From Henriciella sp. AS95 (GTDB taxonomy: Bacteria; Pseudomonadota; Alphaproteobacteria; Caulobacterales; Hyphomonadaceae): 64,000 nucleotides of DNA. Position 1 is the stretch's first letter. Each line of letters begins with the position of its first letter. The notes under the pieces were generated by a model that saw only the letters and a program-made list of their open reading frames with translations, did no database searches and had not been told where the DNA came from. Made by a program: the position numbers and the translations under genes. This document shows, one piece after another, positions 18,999 to 59,666 of this stretch. The stretch lies in assembly GCF_038900055.1 (NCBI RefSeq), contig NZ_JBBMQM010000001.1, positions 3,162,001 through 3,226,000 of the forward strand, written 5' to 3'.

Positions 18999-20429
18999 AT
19001 GCAGTTCGACAGTGACTACAAGATGCTCATCGATGGCGAGCTGGTGGGTGCCAACGACACGATAGATGTCGTCAATCCCGCCACGGAAGAGGCCTTCGCC
19101 ACCTGCCCCCGAGCTTCGAGCGATGATCTGGAAGCAGCCGTCAGCGCAGCAAAGCGGGCATTCTCCAGCTGGAAGAAGACACCCATTGAAGAACGCCGGT
19201 CCGCGCTTCGAAAAGCGAGCGCCCTGATCATGGAGCACGCCGACGCATTTGCGAGCTTGTTCACCAAGGAGCAAGGACGCCCGACAGCCATCGCTAAAGA
19301 AGAAATCATGGGAGCCGCCTACTGGTTTGCAGGCACTGCAGACCTCGACCTGCCTGTCGACGTCACTGAAGACACTGACACCAGGCGGATCGAAGTTCAT
19401 CACGAGCCTCTTGGCGCGGTCTGCGCCATTGTCCCTTGGAATTTTCCTGTGCTTCTGGCCAGCTGGAAGATTGCGCCCGCGATCCTTACGGGCAACACAA
19501 TTGTCCTTAAACCTTCTCCCTTCACGCCGCTGTGCACACTTAAGCTGGGCGAGCTGTTGCAGGACGTGTTTCCACCGGGCGTGATCAATATCATTAGCGG
19601 CGGGGATGAACTTGGCCCATGGATGACATCGCACAAAGGCTTCTCCAAAATCACCTTCACGGGGTCTACCGCGACCGGTCGGAAAGTGATGGAATCGGCC
19701 TCATCTGACCTCAAGAAAGTCACCCTGGAACTTGGTGGCAATGACGCCGCGATTGTTCTCCCAGACGTCGATGTCGACAAAGTTGCTGAGCAGATCTTCG
19801 CAGGCGCATTTTCGAATACGGCGCAGATTTGCGTGGCAACCAAAAGGCTCTATGTCCACGAGGCGATTTATGACGCGATGCGTGACCGCCTCCACGATCT
19901 CGCCAAAGCAGCGACCGTTGGAGACGGGAGCAATCAGGGTAACCGGTTCGGGCCGATACAAAACAAGGCTCAATTCGACCGAGTCACAAACCTGCTTGAG
20001 GACGCAAAAACCAGTGGACTGACGATGCTGTACGGCTCTGACGTCCCGAAGAAGGGTTTTTTCATCCCGCTCACTATCGTCGACAACCCTCCAGAGAACT
20101 CTCGCGTCGTCCAGGAAGAAGCATTCGGCCCCATCCTGCCCATGATGAAATTCTCGGATATTGATGAAGTCATCGACCGCGTAAACGACACAGAATATGG
20201 CCTGGCTGGCGCCGTTTGGTCATCGGACATTGAAAAAGCTACGAAGGTGGCTGCGGCAATGGAAAGCGGCACGGTCTGGATCAACCAGAATCTCCAATCG
20301 ACGCCACTTACGCCGCTGACGGGACACAAGCAATCAGGCGTCGGATCGGAGAATGGCGTTTACGGCCTGCGTGAGTTTACGCAGCCCAAAGCCATCTACA
20401 TTCCAAAATCTGCAAGCAATGTCGCTTGA
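18999..20429 (+). CDS. NAD(P)-dependent aldehyde dehydrogenase
   Basis: 476 residues with the ALDH superfamily landmarks: VPWNFP near 145, KPSPFTP at 171, glycine motif FTGSTATGRKV, general base Glu245 in LELGGN, and catalytic Cys278 in NTAQICVATKR. It oxidises an aldehyde to the acid (no CoA-acylating signature seen). Located 17 bp after the thiolase-like gene in one transcription unit with DUF35, so it may oxidise the aldehyde released by retro-aldol cleavage. GGAG precedes the start. It converges with the TetR gene 8 bp downstream. Confidence 0.93.
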   Translation: MQFDSDYKMLIDGELVGANDTIDVVNPATEEAFATCPRASSDDLEAAVSAAKRAFSSWKKTPIEERRSALRKASALIMEHADAFASLFTKEQGRPTAIAKEEIMGAAYWFAGTADLDLPVDVTEDTDTRRIEVHHEPLGAVCAIVPWNFPVLLASWKIAPAILTGNTIVLKPSPFTPLCTLKLGELLQDVFPPGVINIISGGDELGPWMTSHKGFSKITFTGSTATGRKVMESASSDLKKVTLELGGNDAAIVLPDVDVDKVAEQIFAGAFSNTAQICVATKRLYVHEAIYDAMRDRLHDLAKAATVGDGSNQGNRFGPIQNKAQFDRVTNLLEDAKTSGLTMLYGSDVPKKGFFIPLTIVDNPPENSRVVQEEAFGPILPMMKFSDIDEVIDRVNDTEYGLAGAVWSSDIEKATKVAAAMESGTVWINQNLQSTPLTPLTGHKQSGVGSENGVYGLREFTQPKAIYIPKSASNVA

Positions 20430-48367: not shown

Positions 48368-50716
48368 CTAGTTCGGCGGGCAGAGCTGCTGCAGATCAGG
48401 CGGAACGTCCGCTTCGGCTGAGTCAGACGCCATCAGGGCCACAGCCTCGTCCACAACAGCGCAAGCGGAACCAGAGGCCTCGCCGGAGGCCAATAGCTGC
48501 GCCTTCACGATCAAACCATCAAAGGCAATCTGATCATAGAACCGGTCATCGGGATGCTGAGCGATGAGTGAGCGCGAAAGCGCCACGCTTTCCTCGATGG
48601 CTGCCAGGGCCTGATCGATATCGCCAGCCAGTTGAAATGCCCTCGCCAAAGCGATCAGCATGCGCGCCAGCCCCTCGACACCGCCCGCATCTTCAGGGTC
48701 GGCCTCTGCGATCTGGCGCGCAAGCGCGACGGACCTCTGGGCGGCCGCCACGGCTTCGGGACCAGCCTCCATATTGCGATAGGCATGCGCCAGTTTGGAA
48801 TAGCCGACCATGAGCTGAGTGAGCTGATAATAGTTTTCGGGTTCGGCCTCGAGCATCGCTTCGCGGTACGCGATCGCCTTGTTGGCCGCTTCAGCCGCCT
48901 CTTTGCCGCGACCGAGATCGTTCAGGATTTCAGCTTGTTGTGACTGGAGATAGGCGCCCATTTCCTCGCCGCCGCCAAGACGTTCATACATGTCTGGGGT
49001 GAGCGTCGGCAACCACTCGTCCAGAAACCTTGTTGCGTCTTCGAGGCGCTCTTCGGCCATGAGGATTTGCAAGAGGTCTGTGCGCGCACTCCACAAGTGG
49101 CGCAAAAAAGGACGCTCATCGGCGTTTTCCATCGCCAGCCCTTTTTCGGCCAGCGCCGTGGTCTCTGCATTCAGGGCGAGAGCAGCCTCAGCATCGCCCT
49201 CATAGTTGAGCATCTGCATGGTCTGCATGCGCTTGACCATGACTAGTTCGGCCAGCGCTTCTGCGTTCTGCGGCGAGGCGGCCAGCGCGCGTTTGAACGA
49301 GACTTCGGCATTCGCCAGCATTTCGCCAGATGTCTCCAGGTCACCAAAGTTTGCGACGCCAATTCCGCCATAGAGATCAGACAGCCTGAACTGGATGGTT
49401 CCGATTTCGAACAGCACGTCTTCGGGCGCTGTCTCGTCGAGCGCGAGCGCGTCGACATAGGTCTGGACGAGATCGGCGAGGCTCTTTCGGGGCTCTAGTG
49501 TGCCAGCGACTTTGTCGAACGAGTCGTAGACGTCGAAGATCAGCGAGTTGCTGAGCGTGCGCGCTTGCGTGAAGCGTGCATTTGCGTCGGCAAGCGCCCG
49601 CTCTGCGCGGTTGTACTGGACGAGCGTGACCACGAGGGCGAAGGCGAGCCCGGAAACGGCAAGCGTGCCAAGCGTAACAGCAAGCTGGCGGCGGTGCAGG
49701 AATTTTCTGAACCGGTAGCGGGCGCCGCCGGGCATGGCCTCGACGGGGCGGTTCGCGATGTAATTGTCTATATCATCGACCAGTGCGTCGATGCTGGGAT
49801 AACGGTCTGCGGGATCGGCAGCGCTGGCCTGATCTATGATTGATCGCAATTCCTGGTCAGGATTGTCAAAAAGATCGGCGAGCAACCGGCCCAGTGAATA
49901 TATGTCTGAGAGCGTATTGGCGGCAGCGCCCTGACGTCGCTCGGGTGCCGCGTAGCCTGGCGTAAAGCTCATCGATGCAATGGTCGCACTGCCACCCTCG
50001 CTCGGTTCTGCTGCGGCGCTGATGTCGTGCGGCTTTGCAATGCCGAAATCGATAAGCTTCACGACACCGTCATGCGTAACGAGAACATTTGATGGGGTGA
50101 TATCGCGATGAACGATCAGGTTCTGGTGCGCATGTCCGATCGCACTACAAATCGATGCGAACAATGAAAGCCTGGCGAGCTTGTCGAGATGATTGGCATC
50201 GGCCCATTCAAGCACCGGATCGCCGTCGACATACTCCATCACAATATATGGCGATCCATCATCCATGTAACCGCCATCGAAGAGCCGCGCGATGTTGGGG
50301 TGATTGAGGCTTGCCAGAATTTGTCGTTCGCGGCCGAACCGCTCAGCCAGCGATATTCGCATGGCGCCTGCGCGAATGACCTTTATGGCAACGCGGTGCT
50401 CAAAATCTCCGGCGTCGCGCTCGCCAAGATAGACAGCGCCCATACCGCCGCGGCCTATCAATTCGGAAATTCTGTAGGCACCGATTTTCTCCGGGGGGGC
50501 AGCTTCATCAGGATCAAAGCTGTCCTTGCCAGCGCCGCCCGTCGCCAACACTGTCCGGCCGCTATCGGCATCGAGCAAGGCGAGTGTTCTCAGAAACAGG
50601 AGCTGGTTGTCACCGCATCGGTCTCGTAGCCAGCCGACACGCTCACCGCTGGGCTGATCAAGCGCCTGATCCATGATCAACATGGCTTCGCGCTCAATCG
50701 TATCTGGTTCACTCAC
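48368..50716 (-). CDS. Serine/threonine protein kinase with TM helix and TPR-like region
   Basis: 782 residues; GTG start at 50716 overlaps the sigma-factor stop (GTGA). Kinase domain about 80-325: glycine loop GRGGMGAVY, K112 in VAIKVI, catalytic loop HRDITPSNV with D205, DFG D223, and YAAPE. The usual Lys of HRDLKP is Thr207. A membrane helix (about 345-365) is followed by some 400 residues of alanine-rich helical repeats, TPR-like, presumably extracytoplasmic sensing or scaffolding. Kinases of this build are often paired with ECF-type sigma factors, as here, and may control the sigma factor by phosphorylation. Autophosphorylation is not evident from sequence. Confidence 0.88.
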   Translation of the reverse strand: MSEPDTIEREAMLIMDQALDQPSGERVGWLRDRCGDNQLLFLRTLALLDADSGRTVLATGGAGKDSFDPDEAAPPEKIGAYRISELIGRGGMGAVYLGERDAGDFEHRVAIKVIRAGAMRISLAERFGRERQILASLNHPNIARLFDGGYMDDGSPYIVMEYVDGDPVLEWADANHLDKLARLSLFASICSAIGHAHQNLIVHRDITPSNVLVTHDGVVKLIDFGIAKPHDISAAAEPSEGGSATIASMSFTPGYAAPERRQGAAANTLSDIYSLGRLLADLFDNPDQELRSIIDQASAADPADRYPSIDALVDDIDNYIANRPVEAMPGGARYRFRKFLHRRQLAVTLGTLAVSGLAFALVVTLVQYNRAERALADANARFTQARTLSNSLIFDVYDSFDKVAGTLEPRKSLADLVQTYVDALALDETAPEDVLFEIGTIQFRLSDLYGGIGVANFGDLETSGEMLANAEVSFKRALAASPQNAEALAELVMVKRMQTMQMLNYEGDAEAALALNAETTALAEKGLAMENADERPFLRHLWSARTDLLQILMAEERLEDATRFLDEWLPTLTPDMYERLGGGEEMGAYLQSQQAEILNDLGRGKEAAEAANKAIAYREAMLEAEPENYYQLTQLMVGYSKLAHAYRNMEAGPEAVAAAQRSVALARQIAEADPEDAGGVEGLARMLIALARAFQLAGDIDQALAAIEESVALSRSLIAQHPDDRFYDQIAFDGLIVKAQLLASGEASGSACAVVDEAVALMASDSAEADVPPDLQQLCPPN

Positions 50717-51273
50717 CGCGGATCCGCCGCCATCGCATCAACAAGCCAGGCGCGCGCAACGCGCCACTGGCGTTTAATCGTGGACTCTGAAGTTCCGATG
50801 ACTTCGGCGATTTCCGGCACGGTGAGCCCACCGAAATAGCGAAGCTCGACAATGTCGGCTTTCTCACTGTCGAGCGCATTGAGCCGAATGAGCGATTTCT
50901 CCAACACATCAAAATCAAGCCGGTTGGGTTGGCCTTCGATCCGCGTAACGAGCGTCACCTTCTTGTGATGACGTTTGTCCGAATTCTTCCGGCGCGCATT
51001 GTCGATCAGGATGCGGCGCATCGCGCGGGCGGCCAAAGCCAGAAAGTGCGACTTGTCGGCCCACTCAATCTGGTCAAGCTGGATCAGGCGTATGGCGGCC
51101 TCGCTGACGAGGTCACCGGTCGAAAGCGAGCTGTTACGCTCCGCCCGGAGCATCGCGGCCGAGACCTGCAGCAGCTCTGAATACAATGCATCAAAGAGGG
51201 CGTCACGGGCGTCGAGATCGCCCGCTCGCCAGCCCTTCAGAAGTTCCTTGCAGTCGCTCTTGGTAGCAGTCAT
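50713..51273 (-). CDS. ECF-type RNA polymerase sigma factor (TIGR02999-like)
   Basis: 186 residues. Region 2 is about 20-95 (GDLVSEAAIRLIQLDQIEWADKSHFLALAARAMRRILIDNAR) and region 4 helix-turn-helix about 130-180 (LRYFGGLTVPEIAEVIGTSESTIKRQWRVARAWL). This matches the TIGR02999/Sig-70_X6 branch, often found beside TPR-type Ser/Thr kinases and without a classical anti-sigma factor. Coupled by overlap to the kinase gene. Divergent (148 bp) from the SPFH/FHA/kinase operon, which is its most obvious candidate target besides itself. Confidence 0.9.
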   Translation of the reverse strand: MTATKSDCKELLKGWRAGDLDARDALFDALYSELLQVSAAMLRAERNSSLSTGDLVSEAAIRLIQLDQIEWADKSHFLALAARAMRRILIDNARRKNSDKRHHKKVTLVTRIEGQPNRLDFDVLEKSLIRLNALDSEKADIVELRYFGGLTVPEIAEVIGTSESTIKRQWRVARAWLVDAMAADPR

Positions 51274-51421
51274 TGCACATTCATCCCTCGCCCGACACTA
51301 GGCCTCGTTCGAGATCTGATGCAAGCGCCGCACCATTCGGAAAAACTTTTTAGCCCGCTCGTGACCCGATTTCCGGCAAAGTGACGCCTCTGTCCATGAA
51401 CCAACCTTTTTGAGGAATGTC

Positions 51422-51970
51422 ATGGAAGACGCGATCAATTCAATTCCCGAGGAAGCCTGGCCGCTTCTAGATGCACTGCTGCTGATCACCTGTGTCGTCA
51501 CTGCCCTGTGGCTGATCTGGGTCATCTTTGTCAGCTGGCGGCGTAAGGCGTCAAACCTGACAAGCGTGCGCGGTGCATCCGCCAATCGTCGGGCCTCGCC
51601 AGACTTTCTCGAGGTCGATGAGAAAGCCCGCAAGGCCGCCATCGCTCGCGGGGAAGCCTATGACAAGGTTCTCGACAAGCGAGATGCAACCGAGGCCGCT
51701 GAAGCGCGTCGTGAGTTGCGTCGCAAAGAGAGCATGGTCTCTCGCGCCGGACGTCTGATCTCATTTGCCATGGCGCTCTTTTCCCTGGCGACGATGGTCT
51801 CCGGCACGCTGTTCCAGGTGTCGGTCATGGGTCGCTACTGGGAGCAGTATTCAGCCGGCGAGCGCCTCATGGCTGTCATCCAGGAACACCCGATCGGCGT
51901 GGCTGTCACCGTCGCCGTCATTCTCTTCAACATCGTGACCTTCGTCACCAACCGTAAGTGGGAGGGCTAA
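51422..51970 (+). CDS. Membrane protein, first gene of the SPFH/FHA/kinase operon
   Basis: 182 residues from ATG 51422 (TTGAGGA upstream). Three hydrophobic segments: about 16-39 (LDALLLITCVVTALWLIWVIFVSW), about 116-141 (LISFAMALFSLATMVSGTLFQV) and about 155-176 (HPIGVAVTVAVILFNIVTFVT). A charged, alanine-rich, probably coiled-coil stretch (about 42-110, EVDEKARKAAIARGEAYDK...EAARRELRRKES-like) lies between helices 1 and 2 on the cytoplasmic side. I do not recognise the family. It is 3 bp from the SPFH gene, so it probably forms its membrane anchor. Confidence 0.8.
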   Translation: MEDAINSIPEEAWPLLDALLLITCVVTALWLIWVIFVSWRRKASNLTSVRGASANRRASPDFLEVDEKARKAAIARGEAYDKVLDKRDATEAAEARRELRRKESMVSRAGRLISFAMALFSLATMVSGTLFQVSVMGRYWEQYSAGERLMAVIQEHPIGVAVTVAVILFNIVTFVTNRKWEG

Positions 51971-51973
51971 ATC

Positions 51974-53566
51974 ATGGCCTCTGAACCAATTGTCCTCAGC
52001 GATCCGCGCATGCTTGCAGAGTTCATGCGCCAGAGCGAATTCAAGGCCTTCTTCGAGAAGCGCTTTGCAGTCCCGCCAGATTATGCCGCGCTTCTGTTCA
52101 AGAATGGCCAGCTGATCGATGCCTTCAAAGGCGGTCACTTTTCGGTCGGCGGTCTGGTCGACAAGCTGAAAAGCATCGTTGGCGGATCGACGCACGTCTC
52201 CATGATGATCGCTGATCTGAAACCGTTCCAGCTCAAGACTGTCCTGAAAGCGACGAGCCGTGACCATGTGGACATTGCAGGCGTTGTCACCATCGAAATG
52301 CAAGTCAATCCGGACAAGCCGTCCAACATTCTCGGCATGATGCACGGCGTCGACCGTGCGCCGGGCGACGCAAATGATCTCGGGCGCAAGGCGCTGGCCA
52401 AGGCCGATGTCATGGACCGCATCCGCCCACACTTCTCCGACCGCATCTTTGAAGCCACACTTGGCCGGATGGATGCGAAGGATATTCGCGGCGACACTGG
52501 CCTGCAGGACAAGCTTCAGGCGGAAATGATGAAAGAGGTCGAGCGCGTTGTCGGCGATCTCGGTCTGATCGTTCGCTCCACGTCCATCGAATGGGCCCAG
52601 AACGCCGAGGAAGCTGCCGAGCAGGCCCGCGCAGAAGCCGAACGCCGCCAGAGAGAGGTCGAATACCAGATCGAAATGACCATGCGCCAAGCCGAACTGG
52701 TCAATGATGCGACCCAGTTCGAGATCAAGTCGAACCTCGAGCTTGCGAAACTGCAAAGCGCGACGGAAGACGAACTCAAGCACATGGCGCTCAACAGCGA
52801 GATCGAGTTCATCGACGCGCGCGAGAATGCCAAACGCCGCCAGGAACTGGAAGAACTCGACCACCAGATCGAGTTTGTGAAGCGCGAACGCGACGCGATG
52901 TTCGACGGCCAGCTCGCCTCAGCCCAGAACCAGACGGACCTGATCCGTATCCAGAAAGAGCAGCAGAAGCTCGACACAGAGATGGCTGCACTTCGCGAGC
53001 GGCATATGCAGGAGATGAAGAAATCCGGTGCGCTTTCCGAACTGGAAGTCGCCGAGATCGCGAACAAACAACAGCGCATCCACATTTCCGAACTGCAGGA
53101 AATAGAGCTGCGCGGCGACAAGGTTCGTGCCGAAATCAAGCGCATGGACCGCGAGCAGGAGCACAAGGGCAAGCTTGCTGAACTCAATATCCACAAGGAT
53201 ATGAGCGCAGAGCAGATCCTCGCGATCCAGGCCGGTCTCTCACCAGATGTGGCCCTCGTTCTGGCAGAGCGCGCGCGTGCTGAAACGTCTGCCAATCAGG
53301 ACAGCATGAACCTCATGCGTGAAATGGTCGAAGCGGCCCAGGCCTCGCAAATCCGCTCGGAATCGCAAGCCCGTGAAATGTTCAGCATGGGCATGACGGG
53401 TGCGGCTGGCGTCGCAGCCGGCGCTGGCGGTGGCCAGGCCCCTCAGGGCGCCATTGGAAACCAGGCCCAGGCATCAACGGAAACGATCGACTGCCCGAAA
53501 TGCAGCACCGCAGCGCCGGCCACTTCGAAGTTCTGCATGAAGTGCGGACACAAGCTGCGGACCTGA
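51974..53566 (+). CDS. SPFH/band-7-like coiled-coil protein with C-terminal zinc ribbon
   Basis: 530 residues. An N-terminal SPFH-like domain (about 25-205; VPPDYAALLFKNGQLIDAFKGG, then DLGLIVRSTSIEWAQ) is followed by a very long charged coiled coil (about 205-450, repeated EAERRQREVE, KRRQELEELDHQIEFVKRERDAM), an Ala/Gly-rich linker (about 475-500) and a zinc ribbon C507-x2-C510...C521-x2-C524 (DCPKCSTAAPATSKFCMKCG). No TM helix of its own. SPFH proteins oligomerise into membrane-associated scaffolds; the ribbon matches the one at the N-terminus of the operon kinase, suggesting a shared binding partner. Function unknown. Confidence 0.85.
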   Translation: MASEPIVLSDPRMLAEFMRQSEFKAFFEKRFAVPPDYAALLFKNGQLIDAFKGGHFSVGGLVDKLKSIVGGSTHVSMMIADLKPFQLKTVLKATSRDHVDIAGVVTIEMQVNPDKPSNILGMMHGVDRAPGDANDLGRKALAKADVMDRIRPHFSDRIFEATLGRMDAKDIRGDTGLQDKLQAEMMKEVERVVGDLGLIVRSTSIEWAQNAEEAAEQARAEAERRQREVEYQIEMTMRQAELVNDATQFEIKSNLELAKLQSATEDELKHMALNSEIEFIDARENAKRRQELEELDHQIEFVKRERDAMFDGQLASAQNQTDLIRIQKEQQKLDTEMAALRERHMQEMKKSGALSELEVAEIANKQQRIHISELQEIELRGDKVRAEIKRMDREQEHKGKLAELNIHKDMSAEQILAIQAGLSPDVALVLAERARAETSANQDSMNLMREMVEAAQASQIRSESQAREMFSMGMTGAAGVAAGAGGGQAPQGAIGNQAQASTETIDCPKCSTAAPATSKFCMKCGHKLRT

Positions 53567-53578
53567 GGAATGCTGACC

Positions 53579-54712
53579 ATGTCGTCTTTCCAATACGCGC
53601 CAAAAGCCTGTTGCTCGCGGTCTGCAGAAATCAGCGATGCTGGATTCTGCGGCGAGTGCGGCGAACCGCTGATCCGCTGCATGGCGTTTCAGGAATGCCA
53701 TTCGGTGCTGGACTCGACCGGAAAATGTCCGGTCTGCGTCCGGCCCGAGCTTTCGCTTGACGCTGGCGCTGCCAGCACGGTGCGGGAGGGCGGCAAGCTC
53801 GCCCTGCCCCTGATCATCCGGAACGGCTCGCACGTCGGACGCCCGCTCTTCGTGACCGGCCTCTGGACGAAGGAAGACGATTCACACTGGACCGAAATCC
53901 CTCTCGACTTCGAACGGCTTGATCCGGAAGCAGCAGCGAACGTCGGTATCCGGACCGGGGTGCTCGATCATGCCGGTATTCATCGCATTGACGTGCGCAT
54001 CGCCATCGCGACGCGCTATCAATGGCGCGAAGAAGCATTCGTGCTCACCAGCTCCATCGTTTTCCCTGTCGAAAGCAAGGATCCGGACGGCCCGGTGACC
54101 AACATCACTCTGACGGCCGACCAGATCGGCGCGGGCACAACAATCTACAACCCGACCCGGATCGAACAGGACAGATCGCGCGGCATCGAGACAAATACCC
54201 GTGCCATCCCCCTGAAGACACAACGTGCCGACAAGGTCGAAACCGATAGCGGACTGCGCGGCTATGATGATGGAAAGGTCGTACCCCGCTGGGTCTCGTT
54301 CGCATGGAAGGGCTTCGCGGAAGAAGATCACCCAGAAGAAGGGATCATTCTGGACGCAGCAGGCTTGCTCTATCTCGGACGCAACGCTGTTGGCCGGGCG
54401 GAAGACGGCAATGATGCGAGGCTGGTTGTGAACGCGCGGGACGGCTCCGTTTCAAAGCTGACGGGCTCGATTTCCCGCCAGCATTTCTCTTTCTACACCG
54501 AATCCGGCCGGTTGTGCCTGCGCGTCGACAGCCAGTTTGGCCTGCGCGTCAATGGCGACGCCTATGGCCGCACCAAGACGGTGACCCTGCACGATGGCGA
54601 TGTGATCTCGCCCCTTCGAACCCATCCGGACGCACTCAAGATCAAGGTCACTTTCGAAGCCGAGCGCGACAATGTCACCCGCATCGTTCTCAACCGAACC
54701 TCGAATGCGTGA
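53579..54712 (+). CDS. Zinc-ribbon and FHA domain protein
   Basis: 377 residues from ATG 53579 (TGAGGA upstream at good spacing; ATG 53570 is too close to that site). N-terminal cysteine-rich part (about 8-60) has two CxxC knuckles, FCGECGEPL and KCPVCVRPE. The middle (about 70-190) looks like a beta-sandwich. A C-terminal FHA domain (about 275-360) carries YLGRNAVGR, the phosphothreonine-pocket segment SISRQHFSFY and FGLRVNGDAYG. FHA domains read phosphothreonine, so a target phosphorylated by the kinase encoded next is the natural inference. No membrane segment. Confidence 0.87.
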   Translation: MSSFQYAPKACCSRSAEISDAGFCGECGEPLIRCMAFQECHSVLDSTGKCPVCVRPELSLDAGAASTVREGGKLALPLIIRNGSHVGRPLFVTGLWTKEDDSHWTEIPLDFERLDPEAAANVGIRTGVLDHAGIHRIDVRIAIATRYQWREEAFVLTSSIVFPVESKDPDGPVTNITLTADQIGAGTTIYNPTRIEQDRSRGIETNTRAIPLKTQRADKVETDSGLRGYDDGKVVPRWVSFAWKGFAEEDHPEEGIILDAAGLLYLGRNAVGRAEDGNDARLVVNARDGSVSKLTGSISRQHFSFYTESGRLCLRVDSQFGLRVNGDAYGRTKTVTLHDGDVISPLRTHPDALKIKVTFEAERDNVTRIVLNRTSNA

Positions 54713-54725
54713 GGAAACGAAAATC

Positions 54726-55943
54726 ATGTCACAATGTCCCAACTGTCATACCAGCCTTCCAGACAATGCGAAATTCTGCGCGTCCTGCGGGACGGCTTTG
54801 ACTGACCAGCCTGCCGATACCTCAGCAGACGACCTGGCGTCCATGCACACCGTGTCAGGTCTCGAGACTGTTGCTCCTGGCATTCCGACGGAAGACCCTG
54901 ACCCCAAGATGGACCCGCGGGCGATCACGCCGGGCACCATGATCGCCAGCAAGTACAAGGTCGAACGCAATATTGGCGCTGGCGGCATGGGGGTTGTCTA
55001 CAAGGCCGTCGAAGACGTGACCGATTCAGCCGTCGCCATCAAGCTGATCCCTCCGGGCCAGGTGCGCAGCGAGAAAGCGGTTCAGCGACTCATCGACGAA
55101 GGCAAGACGACGCGCGGTATCGCGCATCCGAATGTCGTTCGGATCTTCGATATCGGCGTGTGGAACAGCGCCCCCTACATCGCCATGGAATATGTGGAGG
55201 GTAAACCGCTCCACGTCTGGCGTAACGAAAAGATGACCCGGAATGAGGAAGTCTCCGCACGCACGGCGGGCCAGATCATCAAGGAAGTCCTGAACGGTCT
55301 TGAGGCGGCTCATGCGGAAGGTGTTATCCACCGCGATCTCAAACCCGAAAACATCATGCTGATCGGTGAGCCGACGGATCAGCACGCCAAGGTCAAGATT
55401 GTTGATTTCGGAATTGCGCTGGCGACCAACCAGCAGACGCAGGAAGCCAGCGGCACCGGCCTCGGCACGCAGCTCTACATGGCGCCTGAGCAGATCCGGA
55501 ACGCCAATGCTGCCAACCCGGCCGCTGACCTCTATTCGGTGTCCAAGATTTTCTACGAACTGATCGTCGGTGTTCTTCCGACCGGCCACTGGTCGCCGCC
55601 TTCCGACGGGCGTTCAGACGTTCCGCAGCAGATTGATGAACTGATCCGCAAAGGTCTTTCGCCGAACCGGGACAGCCGGCCACAGTCTGCCGCCGACTAT
55701 CGCGAGCAGATGATTGCTGGGTTCAACCCCAGCCAATCAACCCGTGGACACCGCCTCAAGGCCGATCCGACGGAAATGAAGGATGCCCAGAAAAATCTGA
55801 TGGAGGCCTATGGGCGCATGTTCAAGGCCATCCCGAAATGGGGATGGGCCGTCATCATCATCTTTGGTCTGATTGCCGCGTTCGCCGTCTCGGAGCCCCA
55901 GGAATGCTTCTATGACAATTACAATAATTGGGTGTGCTCATGA
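54726..55943 (+). CDS. Zinc-ribbon Ser/Thr protein kinase with C-terminal TM and C-x9-C tail
   Basis: 405 residues from ATG 54726. Zinc ribbon C4-x2-C7...C18-x2-C21, linker, then a complete kinase domain (about 75-335): GAGGMGVVY, K106 in VAIKLI, HRDLKPEN with D204, DFG D228, and MAPEQ. A juxtamembrane region (MFKAIPKWGWAV) leads to one TM helix (about 373-389) and a short outside tail with two cysteines spaced C-x9-C (CFYDNYNNWVC) before the terminal Ser. Unlike the sigma-linked kinase, all catalytic motifs are canonical. It lies between the FHA gene and a tiny gene that copies its TM/tail. Confidence 0.92.
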   Translation: MSQCPNCHTSLPDNAKFCASCGTALTDQPADTSADDLASMHTVSGLETVAPGIPTEDPDPKMDPRAITPGTMIASKYKVERNIGAGGMGVVYKAVEDVTDSAVAIKLIPPGQVRSEKAVQRLIDEGKTTRGIAHPNVVRIFDIGVWNSAPYIAMEYVEGKPLHVWRNEKMTRNEEVSARTAGQIIKEVLNGLEAAHAEGVIHRDLKPENIMLIGEPTDQHAKVKIVDFGIALATNQQTQEASGTGLGTQLYMAPEQIRNANAANPAADLYSVSKIFYELIVGVLPTGHWSPPSDGRSDVPQQIDELIRKGLSPNRDSRPQSAADYREQMIAGFNPSQSTRGHRLKADPTEMKDAQKNLMEAYGRMFKAIPKWGWAVIIIFGLIAAFAVSEPQECFYDNYNNWVCS

Positions 55944-56107
55944 TTGCGCGTTTGAAAAATGCTTTTGGACGGATGTTCAAGGCGCTCCCGAAATGGGCGT
56001 GGGCTGTCATCGCAATATTCGTCCTCCTGGTCGTCTATCTTCTTTTGCCGGAGTCGGGCGAAGGCTACTGTTACTATGACAATTGGGGGGAAGAGATATG
56101 CCCGTGA
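55940..56107 (+). CDS. 55-residue single-pass membrane protein resembling the kinase tail
   Basis: Overlaps the kinase stop (ATGA). It encodes MIARLKNAFG-RMFKALPKWA-WAVIAIFVLL-VVYLLLPESG-EGYCYYDNWG-EEICP: a basic N-terminus, one TM helix (about 21-37) and an outside tail. Juxtamembrane GRMFKALPKWAWAV matches GRMFKAIPKWGWAV of the kinase, and the tail has the same C-x9-C spacing with an aromatic-YDN core (CYYDNWGEEIC). Homology to the kinase C-terminus makes a real coding gene very likely despite its size. It may pair with, compete with or anchor the kinase in the membrane; the role is inferred. Confidence 0.82.
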   Translation: MIARLKNAFGRMFKALPKWAWAVIAIFVLLVVYLLLPESGEGYCYYDNWGEEICP

Positions 56108-56146
56108 TCCGGCTCCGCCTGCCGCTCTTCATGAAAGGCAACATCA

Positions 56147-57202
56147 ATGACTAATACGTCTTATCGCATTGACGGCTATATCGCCGCCGACCCGAATGAC
56201 CCGGTCCCATCGCTGCGTATGACCGGGCGCCCTGACCTTCCGTCTGCAGTTGATCTGTCGCCCATGTGTTCGCCGGTCGAAAACCAGGGACATGTTGGCT
56301 CCTGCACGGCGAACTCTGTCGCCGGCGCGCTGGAATATCACCAGATCCTGCATCGCCAGCCGATGACGGACCTCTCGCGTCTCTTCTTGTACTACAATGC
56401 CCGCAAGATAGCCGGCCGGGTCGACAAGGATAAAGGCTGCTCAATGGCGCAGGCTGTCGCGTCTTACCTGGCATTCGGCGCCTGCCCAGAGCCGGTCTGG
56501 CCCTACAATGAAGCTGCATGGTCGCAAGAACCGTCACAGGAAGCCTATGCCGCAGCACATCAATTCGGCTCGCTGCAATATGCCAGCATTGAGCACGGCA
56601 TCGAACTGAAGGTCGCTCTGGCGTCTGGACTGCCGATCATATTCGCGATGGGCGTGCCAAAGCAGGGCCTCATGGTCATCGGCAAGAATCACGGCGTCGT
56701 CCCGGCGCCGGATGATGGAAACTGGGAAGAGGCCAATGGTGGCCATGCAATGCTGATCGTCGGCTATGATGATGCCAGGAACGCCTGGCTGGTCCGTAAT
56801 TCCTGGGGCCGCGATTACGGCATCAATGGCTATGTCTGGATCGATTACCGCGTCATTGACCATTACAAACTGCCACAGGCCTTCTGGACCATAGGGTCTC
56901 TGGATCGGGCAAAGTATTTCCAATTGGCAGGAGCTTCGCCAACAGCCGCTGTAGAAGCGGTCGTGTCCAAGGCGCCGCCAACTGTCCAGGATCAGATTCA
57001 CGCGTTCAAGACCCGCGTTCGAGATGACCTTGAAGCGAATTTGCATTCGACACGCAATTCCATTCGTGACCGGCTGCGCGGACCTGGCGCGGGCGGCGGC
57101 TACGATCGAGGACCAGGCGCTGGCGGCGGATATGACCGTGGTCCGGGTGTCGGTGGCGGCTACGACAAAGGCCCTGGCGCGGGTGGTGGTTATGACGAAT
57201 AG
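56147..57202 (+). CDS. Papain-family (C1) cysteine protease with Gly-rich C-terminal repeats
   Basis: 351 residues with no signal peptide. Peptidase C1 landmarks: oxyanion Q47 and catalytic C53 in ENQGHVGSCTANSVAGALEYH, His200 in NGGHAMLIVGYDD, Asn218 in VRNSWGRDYGINGYVWIDY. No inhibitory propeptide is seen. After the protease domain a helical stretch (about 280-310, QDQIHAFKTR...TRNSIRDRL) leads to four 10-residue RGPGAGGGYD-type repeats (311-350). The next gene is a paralogue with one copy of this tail. As a probably cytoplasmic enzyme in a kinase/FHA operon it may process a signalling or structural target; substrate unknown. Confidence 0.9.
   Translation: MTNTSYRIDGYIAADPNDPVPSLRMTGRPDLPSAVDLSPMCSPVENQGHVGSCTANSVAGALEYHQILHRQPMTDLSRLFLYYNARKIAGRVDKDKGCSMAQAVASYLAFGACPEPVWPYNEAAWSQEPSQEAYAAAHQFGSLQYASIEHGIELKVALASGLPIIFAMGVPKQGLMVIGKNHGVVPAPDDGNWEEANGGHAMLIVGYDDARNAWLVRNSWGRDYGINGYVWIDYRVIDHYKLPQAFWTIGSLDRAKYFQLAGASPTAAVEAVVSKAPPTVQDQIHAFKTRVRDDLEANLHSTRNSIRDRLRGPGAGGGYDRGPGAGGGYDRGPGVGGGYDKGPGAGGGYDE
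57080..57199 (+). repeat. Four tandem 30-bp coding repeats
   Basis: Four in-frame units of about GGACCTGGCGCGGGCGGCGG plus TATGAC-type ends, each encoding GPGAGGGYD and a charged residue. Synonymous differences between units argue for maintained protein repeats rather than a very recent slippage. Confidence 0.85.
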
Positions 57203-57295
57203 GCGGGCCGTGGGGGTGCCTGCCCGTCCGGCGCGGGCGATTGCCTTGGGGACAAATAGGCAAGACGCCTGTGCCGGACACATGGGAGAAAGCGA

Positions 57296-58273
57296 ATGCT
57301 AGAATTCATTGATGGATTTGCGATCGGGGGCTGCTTGCCTGATGAGGCAGGCACCAGCTTTCCACAGCTCAACAAGACAGCCTCTGTGAGCCGGCCTGCC
57401 AGCGTTGATCTGCGGGCGCATTGCTCCCCGGTGGAAGACCAGCGCCGTGTCGGGTCCTGTGTTGGCAATGCGGTTGCGGGCGCTCTGGAATACCACCAGA
57501 TCAAGAATGGCAGGTCGCTCCGCGATCTCTCCAGACTCTTCATCTATTACAATGCCAGACGCCTTGAGGGCAAAGAAATGGAGGACACGGGTTGTTCGCG
57601 TCGCAAGGCGCTGGCCTCGGTCCTGGCCTATGGTGTCTGTCCCGAAACGATGTGGCCCTATCAGGAAGCCATGGTCACCGTGGCTCCCACGCGCGACTGT
57701 TACAGCGCTGCACAGCGCTTCCTCGGCGTTGAATTTGCCGAGCTCACCCATGGCAATGCTGTGAAGGACGTACTGGCGTCAGGGCTACCAGTGGTGTTTG
57801 GCATGGGCGTCCCTGCAAGCTTGAGCCGTATGAATTACGAAAACTGGATCATGCGAGCGCCTGACGACGGACAATGGGAGCCGTCGAGAGGCGGCCACGC
57901 CATGCTGATTGTCGGTTATGATGACACAGAGAATATGTACCTCATCCGAAACTCGTGGGGCACAGGTTGGGGCCGGGACGGCTATATGCTCATGCACCAT
58001 GACGTCCTGATGCATTACACCCAGCCACCTGTTTATCTCGGTGAGCGCCCATTCGTCATCGGGGCCATTGCCGAGTCCCGCGCCTATGAGGTGAGTGGAC
58101 TCGACAAACAGGCCTTCATGTCGACAGCGACAACAGGTGCCAGCCCGCAGGTTCAGGACGAGATTTCAGCGCTTCGCCAGTCGCTCGCCGAAGATCTTGA
58201 AAGCAGTCTCAACAAAACCCGGCAATCGATCCGGGACCGTCTTCGCGGTCCTGGTGCCGGAGGAGGATATTGA
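57296..58273 (+). CDS. Papain-family (C1) cysteine protease, second copy
   Basis: 325 residues from ATG 57296 (GGGAGAAAG upstream). Q49 and C55 in EDQRRVGSCVGNAVAGALEYH, His201 in RGGHAMLIVGYDD, Asn219 in IRNSWGTGWGRDGYMLMHH. No signal peptide or propeptide. Paralogous to the preceding protease over its length, and its C-terminus repeats the same module (VQDEI...DLESSLNKTRQSIRDRLRGPGAGGGY), ending exactly after one GPGAGGGY unit. The pair may form a heterodimer or act on different substrates. Its stop overlaps the next start (TGATG). Confidence 0.9.
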   Translation: MLEFIDGFAIGGCLPDEAGTSFPQLNKTASVSRPASVDLRAHCSPVEDQRRVGSCVGNAVAGALEYHQIKNGRSLRDLSRLFIYYNARRLEGKEMEDTGCSRRKALASVLAYGVCPETMWPYQEAMVTVAPTRDCYSAAQRFLGVEFAELTHGNAVKDVLASGLPVVFGMGVPASLSRMNYENWIMRAPDDGQWEPSRGGHAMLIVGYDDTENMYLIRNSWGTGWGRDGYMLMHHDVLMHYTQPPVYLGERPFVIGAIAESRAYEVSGLDKQAFMSTATTGASPQVQDEISALRQSLAEDLESSLNKTRQSIRDRLRGPGAGGGY

Positions 58274-58776
58274 TGCCTACCCCCGTTCCCACGCCGTCGC
58301 GCCAATCGAGCCGCAAGCGTCTCTCTGTCTTTCGCAGGATCGAAACCGTTACCCCGCTCCTTGCGGTGCCTGTCGTCATTTACGTCATCATGACGTGGAC
58401 GGCTGGCGGCAACCATCAGGATGGCGTGCCAGCCATCAGCGGCATGCTTGGCGCTCCGCTGCTTTCCATTCCGATGATATCCGGCGTGAAGTGGACGCTG
58501 AGCGTCGGCAGCGCCCTGCTCTTCTTCGCACTGGTCCTGCTGTCATTCGAGATTGTCAAAGCCACGAGTTCGAAGTCGAGCGCGATGGTCAACCATGCCG
58601 CGTCCATGGCCGTACTTCTCTTTTGTCTCGTCATGTTCCTGCTGATTGCCAATTTCGCGACGGCGACATTCTTCCTGCTCTCAATGATGGCCCTCATGGA
58701 CGTGCTCGTCGGTGTGATCGTCAGCATTGTATCTGCCCGCCGCGACTTCGGCGTGGGCGACGGCTTCGCTGGATAA
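58273..58776 (+). CDS. Four-helix membrane protein of unknown function
   Basis: 167 residues from ATG 58273 (GGAGGAGG upstream, overlapping the protease stop). A basic, Pro/Ser-rich N-terminus precedes about four hydrophobic segments (about 28-43, 75-92, 108-126, 128-150). No recognised family. Translational coupling to the protease gene makes it part of the same operon, possibly tethering the proteases to the membrane. Confidence 0.78.
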   Translation: MPTPVPTPSRQSSRKRLSVFRRIETVTPLLAVPVVIYVIMTWTAGGNHQDGVPAISGMLGAPLLSIPMISGVKWTLSVGSALLFFALVLLSFEIVKATSSKSSAMVNHAASMAVLLFCLVMFLLIANFATATFFLLSMMALMDVLVGVIVSIVSARRDFGVGDGFAG

Positions 58777-58856: not shown

Positions 58857-59666
58857 TTGAGCCAGGGCTCCGTCGGCGTAAGGAAAGGTCCGCGCCAGGA
58901 GCCTTGCCGTCACGTGTCTTTGCCAGACCTCTTTCTTATTGTGATCGCCCCATTCGTCGGCGTCGCTATTGGAATACTGCCTTCGCGCTGGGCCGATGGC
59001 GACACGGAAGAAATCCCGCAAAGGGCGTGTTCCAACTGCGGGGGCGGGTGCGATTGGTATCTCTGGGTGCCCGTCCTGGGCTGGCTCTTGCGGGGCGGCA
59101 AATGCCGGGAATGCGGGGCGCGCCTTTCCATCTTTTATCCAATCGTCGAAATTCTCGCATTGCTCGTCGCGCTCACCGCGTACTACTTCGCCCCGCCAGG
59201 GACTTTTATCCTGTCCTGCCTGATGGGATGGACGCTTCTGGCGCTCGCCGCGGTCGACTGGAGAACCTTCGTTCTGCCGGACCCGTTGAATGCCCTGCTT
59301 GCCGCCCTCGGAGGCATCATGATCGTGACCGTCATGCCCGAGCGGTGGATGGACAAGGTCATCGGAGCGCTGGTCGGCTATGGGATCCTGTTTGCTGTCG
59401 AGGTTTTCTACCGCGTCTATCGCGGCCGCGAAGGCCTCGGCAGAGGTGATGCCAAATTGCTTGGCGCGATCGGCCTCTGGGTTGGGTGGATGAGCCTGTC
59501 GGACATCTTACTCATTGCATCTCTGGCCGGGCTTGGCTTCACGCTCGCCAGCAACGCCTTCCAGCGACAAGCGGTATCCGGTCAAACAGCACTGGCCTTC
59601 GGTCCTTGGCTGGCGCTGGCTGGTTGGATCAGCTGGCTTTGCGGACCAATTCTCGTGGCGGTTTAA
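58857..59666 (+). CDS. Prepilin peptidase-like A24 membrane protease
   Basis: 269 residues, TTG start at 58857 with GAGGGG upstream. N-terminal domain with a tetracysteine zinc site (C58-x2-C61, C83-x2-C86; CSNCGG...GKCRECGARLS), then six or so membrane helices holding the two catalytic aspartates in AAVDWRTFVLPD and GRGDAKLLGAIG. Such enzymes cut the leader of type IV prepilins and pseudopilins. No pilin, secretin or assembly ATPase is encoded in the window, so its substrate is elsewhere or is a non-pilin. It follows the four-TM gene by 80 bp. Confidence 0.9.
   Translation: MSQGSVGVRKGPRQEPCRHVSLPDLFLIVIAPFVGVAIGILPSRWADGDTEEIPQRACSNCGGGCDWYLWVPVLGWLLRGGKCRECGARLSIFYPIVEILALLVALTAYYFAPPGTFILSCLMGWTLLALAAVDWRTFVLPDPLNALLAALGGIMIVTVMPERWMDKVIGALVGYGILFAVEVFYRVYRGREGLGRGDAKLLGAIGLWVGWMSLSDILLIASLAGLGFTLASNAFQRQAVSGQTALAFGPWLALAGWISWLCGPILVAV

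Follow-up and report, generated by a model that had tools for sequence, protein, structure and literature searches.

What might a bacterium do with a Ser/Thr kinase, an FHA protein, an SPFH-type scaffold and papain-family proteases encoded side by side? A reading made from the sequence alone had described eight same-strand genes with this content in the stretch of Henriciella sp. AS95 DNA analysed here (64,000 nucleotides, referred to as the window), and their coordinates, strand and gaps of -4 to 93 bp all proved correct. The intergenic distances along the operon are 3, 3, 13, -4, 39, 93 and -4 bp, taking 54726 as the start of the kinase gene (the longest frame, as entered in the ORF list, begins at 54672) and 55940 as the start of the tiny gene behind it.

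Components and conservation of the gene set

The operon, which lies on the plus strand throughout, begins and ends with genes for membrane proteins. Hydropathy counts give three transmembrane (TM) segments for the first product, TM1 (51422..51970), and four for the last (58270..58776), in line with the sequence-only reading; no Pfam family was found above cut-off for TM1, and none for the four-TM protein. NLT and PDFL motifs located between the first and second TM segments of TM1 are invariant in 22 sequences. With its inferred topology, TM1 is a candidate membrane anchor and carrier of phosphorylation sites.

The second product (51974..53566) had been described as an SPFH/coiled-coil scaffold with a zinc ribbon. 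Its predicted structure, of modest quality (mean pLDDT 64), places an SPFH fold before a coiled coil, as expected of the SPFH superfamily; all 36 PDB matches at E<=0.001 are SPFH proteins, the best being prohibitin (E 2.4e-6), HflK/C, flotillin and stomatin. The search for an SPFH/Band 7 Pfam domain gave no match at E<=0.1, the C-terminal Zn_Ribbon_1 match (24.3 bits) lies slightly below the curated cut-off of 25, and the hydropathy count indicates no TM segment.

The FHA reader and the kinase of the earlier description were both upheld. The FHA protein (53570..54712) combines an N-terminal Cys-rich ribbon, an Ig-like sandwich (residues about 58-173) seen in the predicted structure, and an FHA domain (about 240-370) recovered both by Pfam (3.6e-7) and in a predicted structure of good quality; by hydropathy count it has no TM segment. 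The kinase (54726..55943) has an N-terminal zinc ribbon (4.8e-8), a Pkinase domain (3.8e-47) and one TM segment in its tail, which ends in a short Cys-containing part. Its Gly-loop, HRD, DFG and APE motifs and Cys ribbon are present in 23/23 loci, the Lys standing in A(V/I)K in 13 of them and in ALK in the other 10. The tiny protein that follows (55940..56107), for which no Pfam family was found, was rightly taken for a mimic of the kinase tail: it has one TM segment, is 47% identical to the kinase TM segment and tail, and represents a local duplicate of them. Besides this tiny gene in the window, six other loci have a stand-alone copy of the extracytoplasmic part of the kinase, there in the form of a lipoprotein-like gene.

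Two papain-family (C1) proteases complete the operon (a, 56147..57202; b, 57296..58273). Both match Peptidase_C1 (9.7e-17 and 6.8e-18), and both retain within this domain the catalytic Gln, Cys, His and Asn of the papain family, residues kept by 95% or more of 27 copies. A single segment flagged by the hydropathy count inside the protease domain of a is read as globular. Protease a carries a basic C-terminal tail with GPGAGGGY-type repeats and b a tail of the same kind; by eye, such a tail is present on 27/27 proteases, and a profile of it gave strong matches only among these proteases, in 16 genomes. The closest solved relative by sequence is 3ois (5.4e-39), which we take to be a Xylella cysteine protease; its alignment stops at residue 251 of 351, leaving the conserved tail uncovered.

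The co-occurrence and gene-order check suggested by the sequence-only reading was run on 23 loci (the window and 22 loci of relatives, mostly Hyphomonas and Henriciella), each counted once after dropping duplicate rows (L016, L017, L019-L023 and L026, the same loci as L027, L045, L029, L028, L041, L037, L035 and L040). The order SPFH-FHA-kinase-C1 is kept in all 23, and TM1 is present in 22, the remaining locus (L038) being cut by a contig end. The twin proteases and the tiny gene, real as they are in the window, do not belong to this core, since two protease copies occur in only 4/23 loci (the window, L027, L032 and L045) and no stand-alone counterpart of the tiny gene was found in the other 22; to judge from these comparisons, both are lineage additions. 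The four-TM gene lies outside the operon in several relatives. Near or beside the sigma/kinase genes described below, 6/23 loci encode a metallophosphatase, a possible eraser.

The host group of the locus is marine Hyphomonas-type bacteria. Strong SPFH matches were obtained in 12/150 genomes of the order, this genome included, and proteases of the present type (E<=3e-60) in the same 12, with none in the 138 others (next best 2e-27). Within the family the distribution is patchy (11 of the 30 other listed genomes carry the locus), and the genomic neighborhoods differ between relatives. A multi-gene system of SPFH protein, FHA protein, kinase and papain protease was not found in the open-access literature, which agrees with the earlier claim that no named system has this composition. 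The kinase as writer, the FHA protein as reader, the SPFH protein as scaffold and a protease make up a conserved set in a combination that is apparently undescribed.

A divergent sigma factor and a shared candidate promoter motif

Divergent from the operon, on the minus strand (48368-51273), lies a pair of genes overlapping by 4 bp, which encode an ECF sigma factor (50713..51273; TIGR02999 Sig-70_X6, 1.3e-53) and a Ser/Thr kinase with a TPR part (48368..50716). The latter has a Pkinase domain (8.6e-35, residues 81-283), one TM segment (345-363) and a C-terminal part, probably extracytoplasmic, on which TPR models score 0.002-0.044, all short of the cut-off. Counterparts of the TPR kinase adjoin the locus in relatives, and we propose that it is the sensor kinase of the sigma factor. 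Orthologs of the sigma factor, with identities of 66% or more, are encoded in 12/12 genomes with the locus and 0/19 without it (Fisher 7e-9, uncorrected for relatedness); in one of the 12 the ortholog lies on another contig than the locus. The earlier reading had connected neither this pair nor the promoter motif with the operon.

A candidate ECF promoter, TGACCCG-N16-CGCCT (51362..51389, plus strand), precedes the first gene by 32 nt. With variants allowed, the motif precedes TM1 in 20/22 loci, the exceptions being L032, one base off (TGAGCCG), and L044, where it is absent; where the four-TM gene stands outside the operon in L024, L025, L033 and L039, it has a motif copy of its own. The window's own genome holds 8 exact TGAMCCG-N16-CGCCT sites versus 1 in the backward control, and all 8 sit 13-52 nt before an ORF. 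Besides the operon, they precede seven other genes, mostly for membrane and exported proteins.

Across genomes, the strict motif occurs 27 times among the 12 locus-bearing genomes (11/12 genomes; backward control, 5) and 7 times in the 19 without it (6/19 genomes, 1-2 sites each; backward control, 2). Leaving out the 7 TM1 sites and retaining two four-TM sites (G060, G021), the comparison is 20 versus 7. Three of the 7 sites in locus-free genomes are one site shared by close relatives, 41 nt upstream of a riboflavin synthase gene (named by eye), and two lie inside ORFs of 857 and 995 codons; the looser motif is widespread without the locus (18/19 such genomes). We surveyed the context of 22 sites in genomes with the locus (7 in the window's own genome and 15 in others; for one strict site of G110 there was no locus): four have no downstream ORF by the rule used, several fall within ORFs on the opposite strand, and another five (L046, L088, L099, L102, L103) within same-strand ORFs of at least 100 codons.

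Taken together, the sigma/kinase pair and the promoter motif are the best-supported functional clue to this locus, and the operon appears to be under the control of a stress sigma factor and the sensor kinase paired with it.

Proposed mechanism and its significance

The reading that we prefer, to which we give about even credence from sequence comparisons, is that the genes form a sigma-factor-controlled envelope-response system in which an envelope signal, acting through the kinase and sigma factor, would induce a membrane-held SPFH scaffold that couples phosphorylation, FHA binding and papain proteolysis. By analogy with ECF43 precedents, the TPR kinase would sense a signal beyond the cytoplasmic membrane and phosphorylate the co-encoded sigma factor. 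The latter would then act at TGACCCG-N16-CGCCT to transcribe the operon together with a few other genes, most of them for membrane or exported proteins, a step supported by the co-occurrence of sigma factor and locus and by the shared motif. The soluble SPFH protein would form an oligomeric scaffold, tethered to the membrane by TM1, the four-TM protein or both, much as YdjI needs YdjG and YdjH. On this scaffold the zinc-ribbon kinase would phosphorylate partners, the FHA protein would bind the phosphothreonines, and the papain protease or proteases, docked via their shared C-terminal tail, would cut membrane-associated clients. Phosphorylation might assemble the scaffold and trigger proteolysis, as the sequence-only reading supposed. 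Stand-alone copies of the extracytoplasmic part of the zinc-ribbon kinase would tune that kinase, and the metallophosphatase, where present, would reset the pathway.

More tentatively, and with some doubt, we suggest that phospho-gated proteolytic membrane scaffolds form a new class, to which this locus would belong: a resident kinase would write on a soluble SPFH cage, an FHA protein would read there and papain proteases tethered by their C-terminal tails would cut, the whole being installed as needed by a kinase-activated sigma factor. If true, checkpoint-style kinase-FHA signalling would have a bacterial counterpart, wired straight to a cathepsin-like protease.

If the preferred mechanism is right, one bacterial pathway would contain two Ser/Thr kinases in series, one directed to transcription through the sigma factor and the other to local signalling on a membrane scaffold holding cathepsin-like proteases. 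It would link three kinds of bacterial parts that are poorly understood, namely ECF sigma factors paired with STPKs, soluble SPFH-zinc-ribbon proteins and papain proteases of the cytoplasm, and would offer a compact model of SPFH scaffold control over proteolysis. Should the mechanism prove wrong, the promoter motif and candidate regulon would still open the system to direct tests in culturable marine bacteria.

Alternative functions and known systems

A TIGR02999-type ECF factor encoded with a TM-bearing Ser/Thr kinase is also found in the ECF43 pairs EcfK/PknS of Xanthomonas citri, which promotes resistance to amoebae (PMC13147305), and EcfP/PknT of Vibrio parahaemolyticus, which promotes polymyxin resistance (PMC8999054). 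This likeness raises the possibility, in our view an unlikely one, that the locus is a predation- or antimicrobial-peptide-resistance programme with an SPFH/protease effector in place of the type VI secretion system (T6SS). The T6SS sheath family is found in 0/31 genomes, the output genes are different, and Pfam recognised no resistance family in the six genes scanned (all motif genes outside the operon but L051). The sigma factors differ as well. Region sigma-2.2 reads (S/A/T)(T/S)(G/S/N)D here, versus QTTA/STTA of ECF43 (reference motifs from PMC13147305 and PMC8999054); placed by eye, the position of EcfK T51 holds Gly, Ser or Asn, and never Thr, in 20/20 aligned sequences, and the Asp at the fourth place is kept. 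Since the key Thr is missing, activation would need another site, such as the Thr of KVT in the sigma2-sigma4 linker (19/20, Glu in L044), a merely possible counterpart of EcfK T106. According to a review, STPK activation has been shown for an ECF43 factor of Hyphomonas neptunium (PMC8999054), which may or may not be the present ortholog.

Archaeal ESCRT loci suggest a membrane remodelling or protein sorting machine, ESCRT-like without an ESCRT-III of its own, which we think quite improbable. Their inventory, as described for the Meth_adaptin, Halo_FHA and main clades, includes SPFH-coiled-coil-zinc ribbon proteins, zinc ribbon with Ig, FHA, STK and STP, with these parts distributed among different clades (PMC10936438). 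The present locus resembles it down to the Ig-like domain of the FHA protein, with the STP likeness consisting in the metallophosphatase of 6/23 loci; a partner is also available in the cell, as all 31 genomes examined, with or without the locus, encode PspA, the bacterial relative of ESCRT-III, at another place (in the window's own genome once, at C1:63730, far from the window). Unlike in archaea, neither Vps4 nor ESCRT-III was found among the eight operon proteins and the products of the sigma and TPR-kinase genes, and a papain protease is not mentioned for archaeal loci in section 5 of PMC10936438.

Defence, which the sequence-only reading had listed beside stress and envelope quality control, has been weakened as an option. 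An anti-phage or conflict system, in which infection would trigger the kinase, FHA assembly and papain proteases and end in cell death or stall, would suit the patchy presence and differing neighborhoods, the protease and kinase composition, and the match of the kinase to PADLOC kinase models. Against it, the PADLOC 2023 matches, judged from the best 25 of 36 families, are confined to the kinase domain of the kinase and leave the seven remaining operon proteins unmatched, and 0/10 flanking proteins from six loci, mostly metabolic or transport, gave a match. To our knowledge, such systems are not typically controlled by ECF sigma factors with a mostly membrane and exported regulon, and we hold this explanation to be very unlikely.

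That the genes are unrelated neighbours, held together by chance or by a general tendency of genes to cluster, has nothing of weight in its favour beyond the mobility of the four-TM and sigma genes and is hardly credible, being refuted by the core order of 23/23 loci, which persists with SPFH or FHA identities as low as 35-41% to the window's proteins, and at odds with the correlated identities of SPFH, FHA, kinase and C1 proteins (r 0.88-0.95, uncorrected for species history).

The envelope-response reading finds two further points of comparison. HflK/C-FtsH and prohibitin share with the present locus the theme of scaffold and protease and the SPFH fold (predicted here, with HflK/C-FtsH among the PDB matches); unlike HflK/C-FtsH, the locus encodes a papain-type cysteine protease instead of an AAA protease, and its SPFH protein has no TM segment. 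The closest analogue, not a homologous system, is the Bacillus subtilis sigmaW/pspA-ydjGHI operon, in which YdjI, an SPFH protein without TM segments and with a zinc finger, is sigmaW-controlled and is brought to the membrane by the small membrane proteins YdjG and YdjH of the same operon (PMC8581546). Likened by description, both are operons under ECF control (proposed for the present one) that encode a TM-less SPFH protein with a C-terminal zinc finger or ribbon together with small membrane proteins; unlike pspA-ydjGHI, the present operon has no PspA family among its proteins, its SPFH protein has no Band 7 Pfam match, and a kinase, an FHA protein and papain proteases have been added.

Conservation and distribution of the locus

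Two short peptide patterns drawn from the SPFH alignment, searched for in a single genome of each species, recovered at least 19 named loci; the 19 from this pattern scan, three further genomes and the window itself give 23 distinct loci. The sequence-only reading of the operon (51422..58776, forward strand) had raised co-occurrence of the SPFH and C1 (papain-family) protease genes in a fixed order in relatives, and this was borne out, as the core order SPFH, FHA, kinase, C1 protease is the same in all 23 loci. The gene for the three-TM membrane protein TM1 (51422..51970) was found in 22, the exception being L038, whose locus begins at a contig end. The system is real and conserved, and its gene content, order, co-occurrence, upstream motif, folds and active-site motifs are established.

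The hosts are mainly Hyphomonas and Henriciella, with three further members of the family (L018, L024, L025), a Parvularculaceae MAG (L042), Pontixanthobacter aquaemixtae (L044) and MAGs known by a broad label, either Proteobacteria (L043) or Alphaproteobacteria (L028, L041). One contig, L031, is labelled Acidobacteria; because its gene content is of the L028-L030 type (Hyphomonas), it is possibly mis-binned, or else a transfer. In P. aquaemixtae, which belongs to another lineage, the sigma/kinase pair follows the operon and shares its strand. Strong SPFH matches occurred in 12 of 150 genomes of the order (own genome included), and the system-type C1 protease in the same 12; the system is patchily distributed within the order. 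One of 385 genomes in a class-wide sample was positive (AS95 itself), as were two of 398 in a phylum-wide sample searched with the FHA profile; outside the family, the system is rare among the samples searched.

Accessory genes vary. Two proteases are present in 4/23 loci, and a metallophosphatase gene (family determined for one) adjoins or lies near the sigma/kinase genes in six of the 23. The tiny gene duplicates, locally, the TM segment and tail of the kinase, to which it is 47% identical (codon-position differences of 14, 16 and 27). In six loci (L018, L028-L032) kinase and protease are separated by a lipoprotein-like gene, whose relationship to the longer C-terminal domain of the kinase was seen in the two of the six that were compared (best E 5.8e-10). 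These sequence relationships suggest that the extracytoplasmic part of the kinase has given rise to a free copy on two or more occasions. A prepilin peptidase (A24) gene follows the operon by 80 bp on the same strand (58857-59666); no counterpart was found in the mapped relatives.

Sigma factor, candidate promoter motif and regulon

An ECF sigma factor (TIGR02999, 1.3e-53) is encoded divergently from the operon, its gene overlapped by 4 bp by that of a kinase with one TM segment and weak TPR matches (48368-51273, reverse strand). The sigma gene is close to the operon in 20 loci; of the other three, L038 and L043 are short of flank and L027 (G135) carries it on another contig. Among 31 genomes, a sigma ortholog (at least 66% identity) was present in 12/12 with the operon versus 0/19 without (Fisher 7e-9, genomes treated as independent of kinship), and three of these 19 have a relative of at most 39% identity. 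In L018 and L028-L031, a protein encoded downstream of the TPR kinase, 236-238 residues long except in L028, where the frame is longer, is homologous to L048, a motif-preceded protein of AS95.

The regulatory half of the system is a variant of ECF43-type signalling. The ECF43 factors EcfK and EcfP are activated by their partner kinases PknS (PMC13147305) and PknT (PMC8999054), respectively, and a Hyphomonas neptunium ECF43/STPK pair was tested by Iyer et al. 2020, according to PMC8999054. The decisive sigma-2.2 threonine of ECF43 factors is replaced in the locus sigma factors. Since a linker position holds threonine in 19 of 20 sequences and glutamate in the twentieth (L044), we propose that it may act as a switch, by analogy with EcfK T106.

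The motif TGA(A/C)C(C/G)G-N16-CGC(C/T)(T/G) lies upstream of TM1 in 20 of 22 loci (51362-51389 in the window), at a distance of 19-40 nt from the start position used, or 130 nt in L043; it is one base off in L032 and absent in L044. In AS95, TGAMCCG-N16-CGCCT has eight sites versus one for the backward control, and each of the eight is 13-52 nt upstream of an ORF. One of them serves as the candidate site of the operon. The other seven precede genes for a Sel1-repeat protein, a 299-residue protein of no family, a protein that resembles an autotransporter by eye, and four proteins that have no Pfam match above the cut-off and, on visual inspection, seem to be membrane-bound or exported. In four genomes (L050, L059, L094, L097) the motif precedes members of one protein family, about 185 residues long, and where the 4-TM gene is located outside the operon it has its own copy of the motif (L024, L025, L033, L039). 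With the TM1 sites used to derive the motif left out, the stricter form gave 20 matches in 12 locus-bearing genomes versus 7 in 19 without (binomial 2e-4). The looser form is not by itself diagnostic, as it is present in 18 of 19 locus-free genomes. The system's genes are probably co-regulated. In three closely related locus-free genomes (L054, L084, L087), a riboflavin-synthase-like gene is preceded at 41 nt by a motif match, probably a chance occurrence that they have inherited in common.

Proposed mechanism and known systems

Bacillus pspA-ydjGHI is under an ECF factor, and its SPFH protein YdjI, which has a C-terminal zinc finger and no TM segment, depends on membrane partners (PMC8581546). 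Because the operon's output is alike, we propose that the SPFH scaffold would be held at the membrane by TM1 and/or the 4-TM protein, with the zinc ribbons of the SPFH protein, FHA protein and kinase mediating assembly. The kinase would write, and the FHA protein read, phosphothreonines, for which the invariant NLT of TM1 is a candidate site. The C1 proteases may dock via the basic C-terminal tail found in 27/27 copies; a profile of this tail gave no strong match other than these proteases in 16 genomes. All interactions in this scheme, its trigger and its substrate are inferred. By eye, the motif-preceded proteins L053 (AS95, C1:3598036) and L100 (G120) have basic tails resembling that of the proteases, and an L053 homolog adjoins the locus in L031 (19911-20522; own motif at 19863).

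The suggestion that the gene set lacks a known system name has stood up, no published description having been found in the open-access literature; the system is apparently undescribed. Its composition fails at least one membership test of each known system compared. PADLOC recognised no defence system for the operon or the flanking proteins checked, and a T6SS sheath gene was found in none of the 31 genomes. PspA, Vps4 and ESCRT-III are absent among the operon proteins; each of the 31 genomes, locus present or not, codes for PspA elsewhere, which neither supports nor excludes a link between PspA and the system. Archaeal ESCRT loci, as described in section 5 of PMC10936438, hold many of the operon's domains, spread over different clades, whereas the ESCRT hallmark genes are missing from the Henriciella operon. 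As a set of genes the system appears to be new; its parts come from known domain families.
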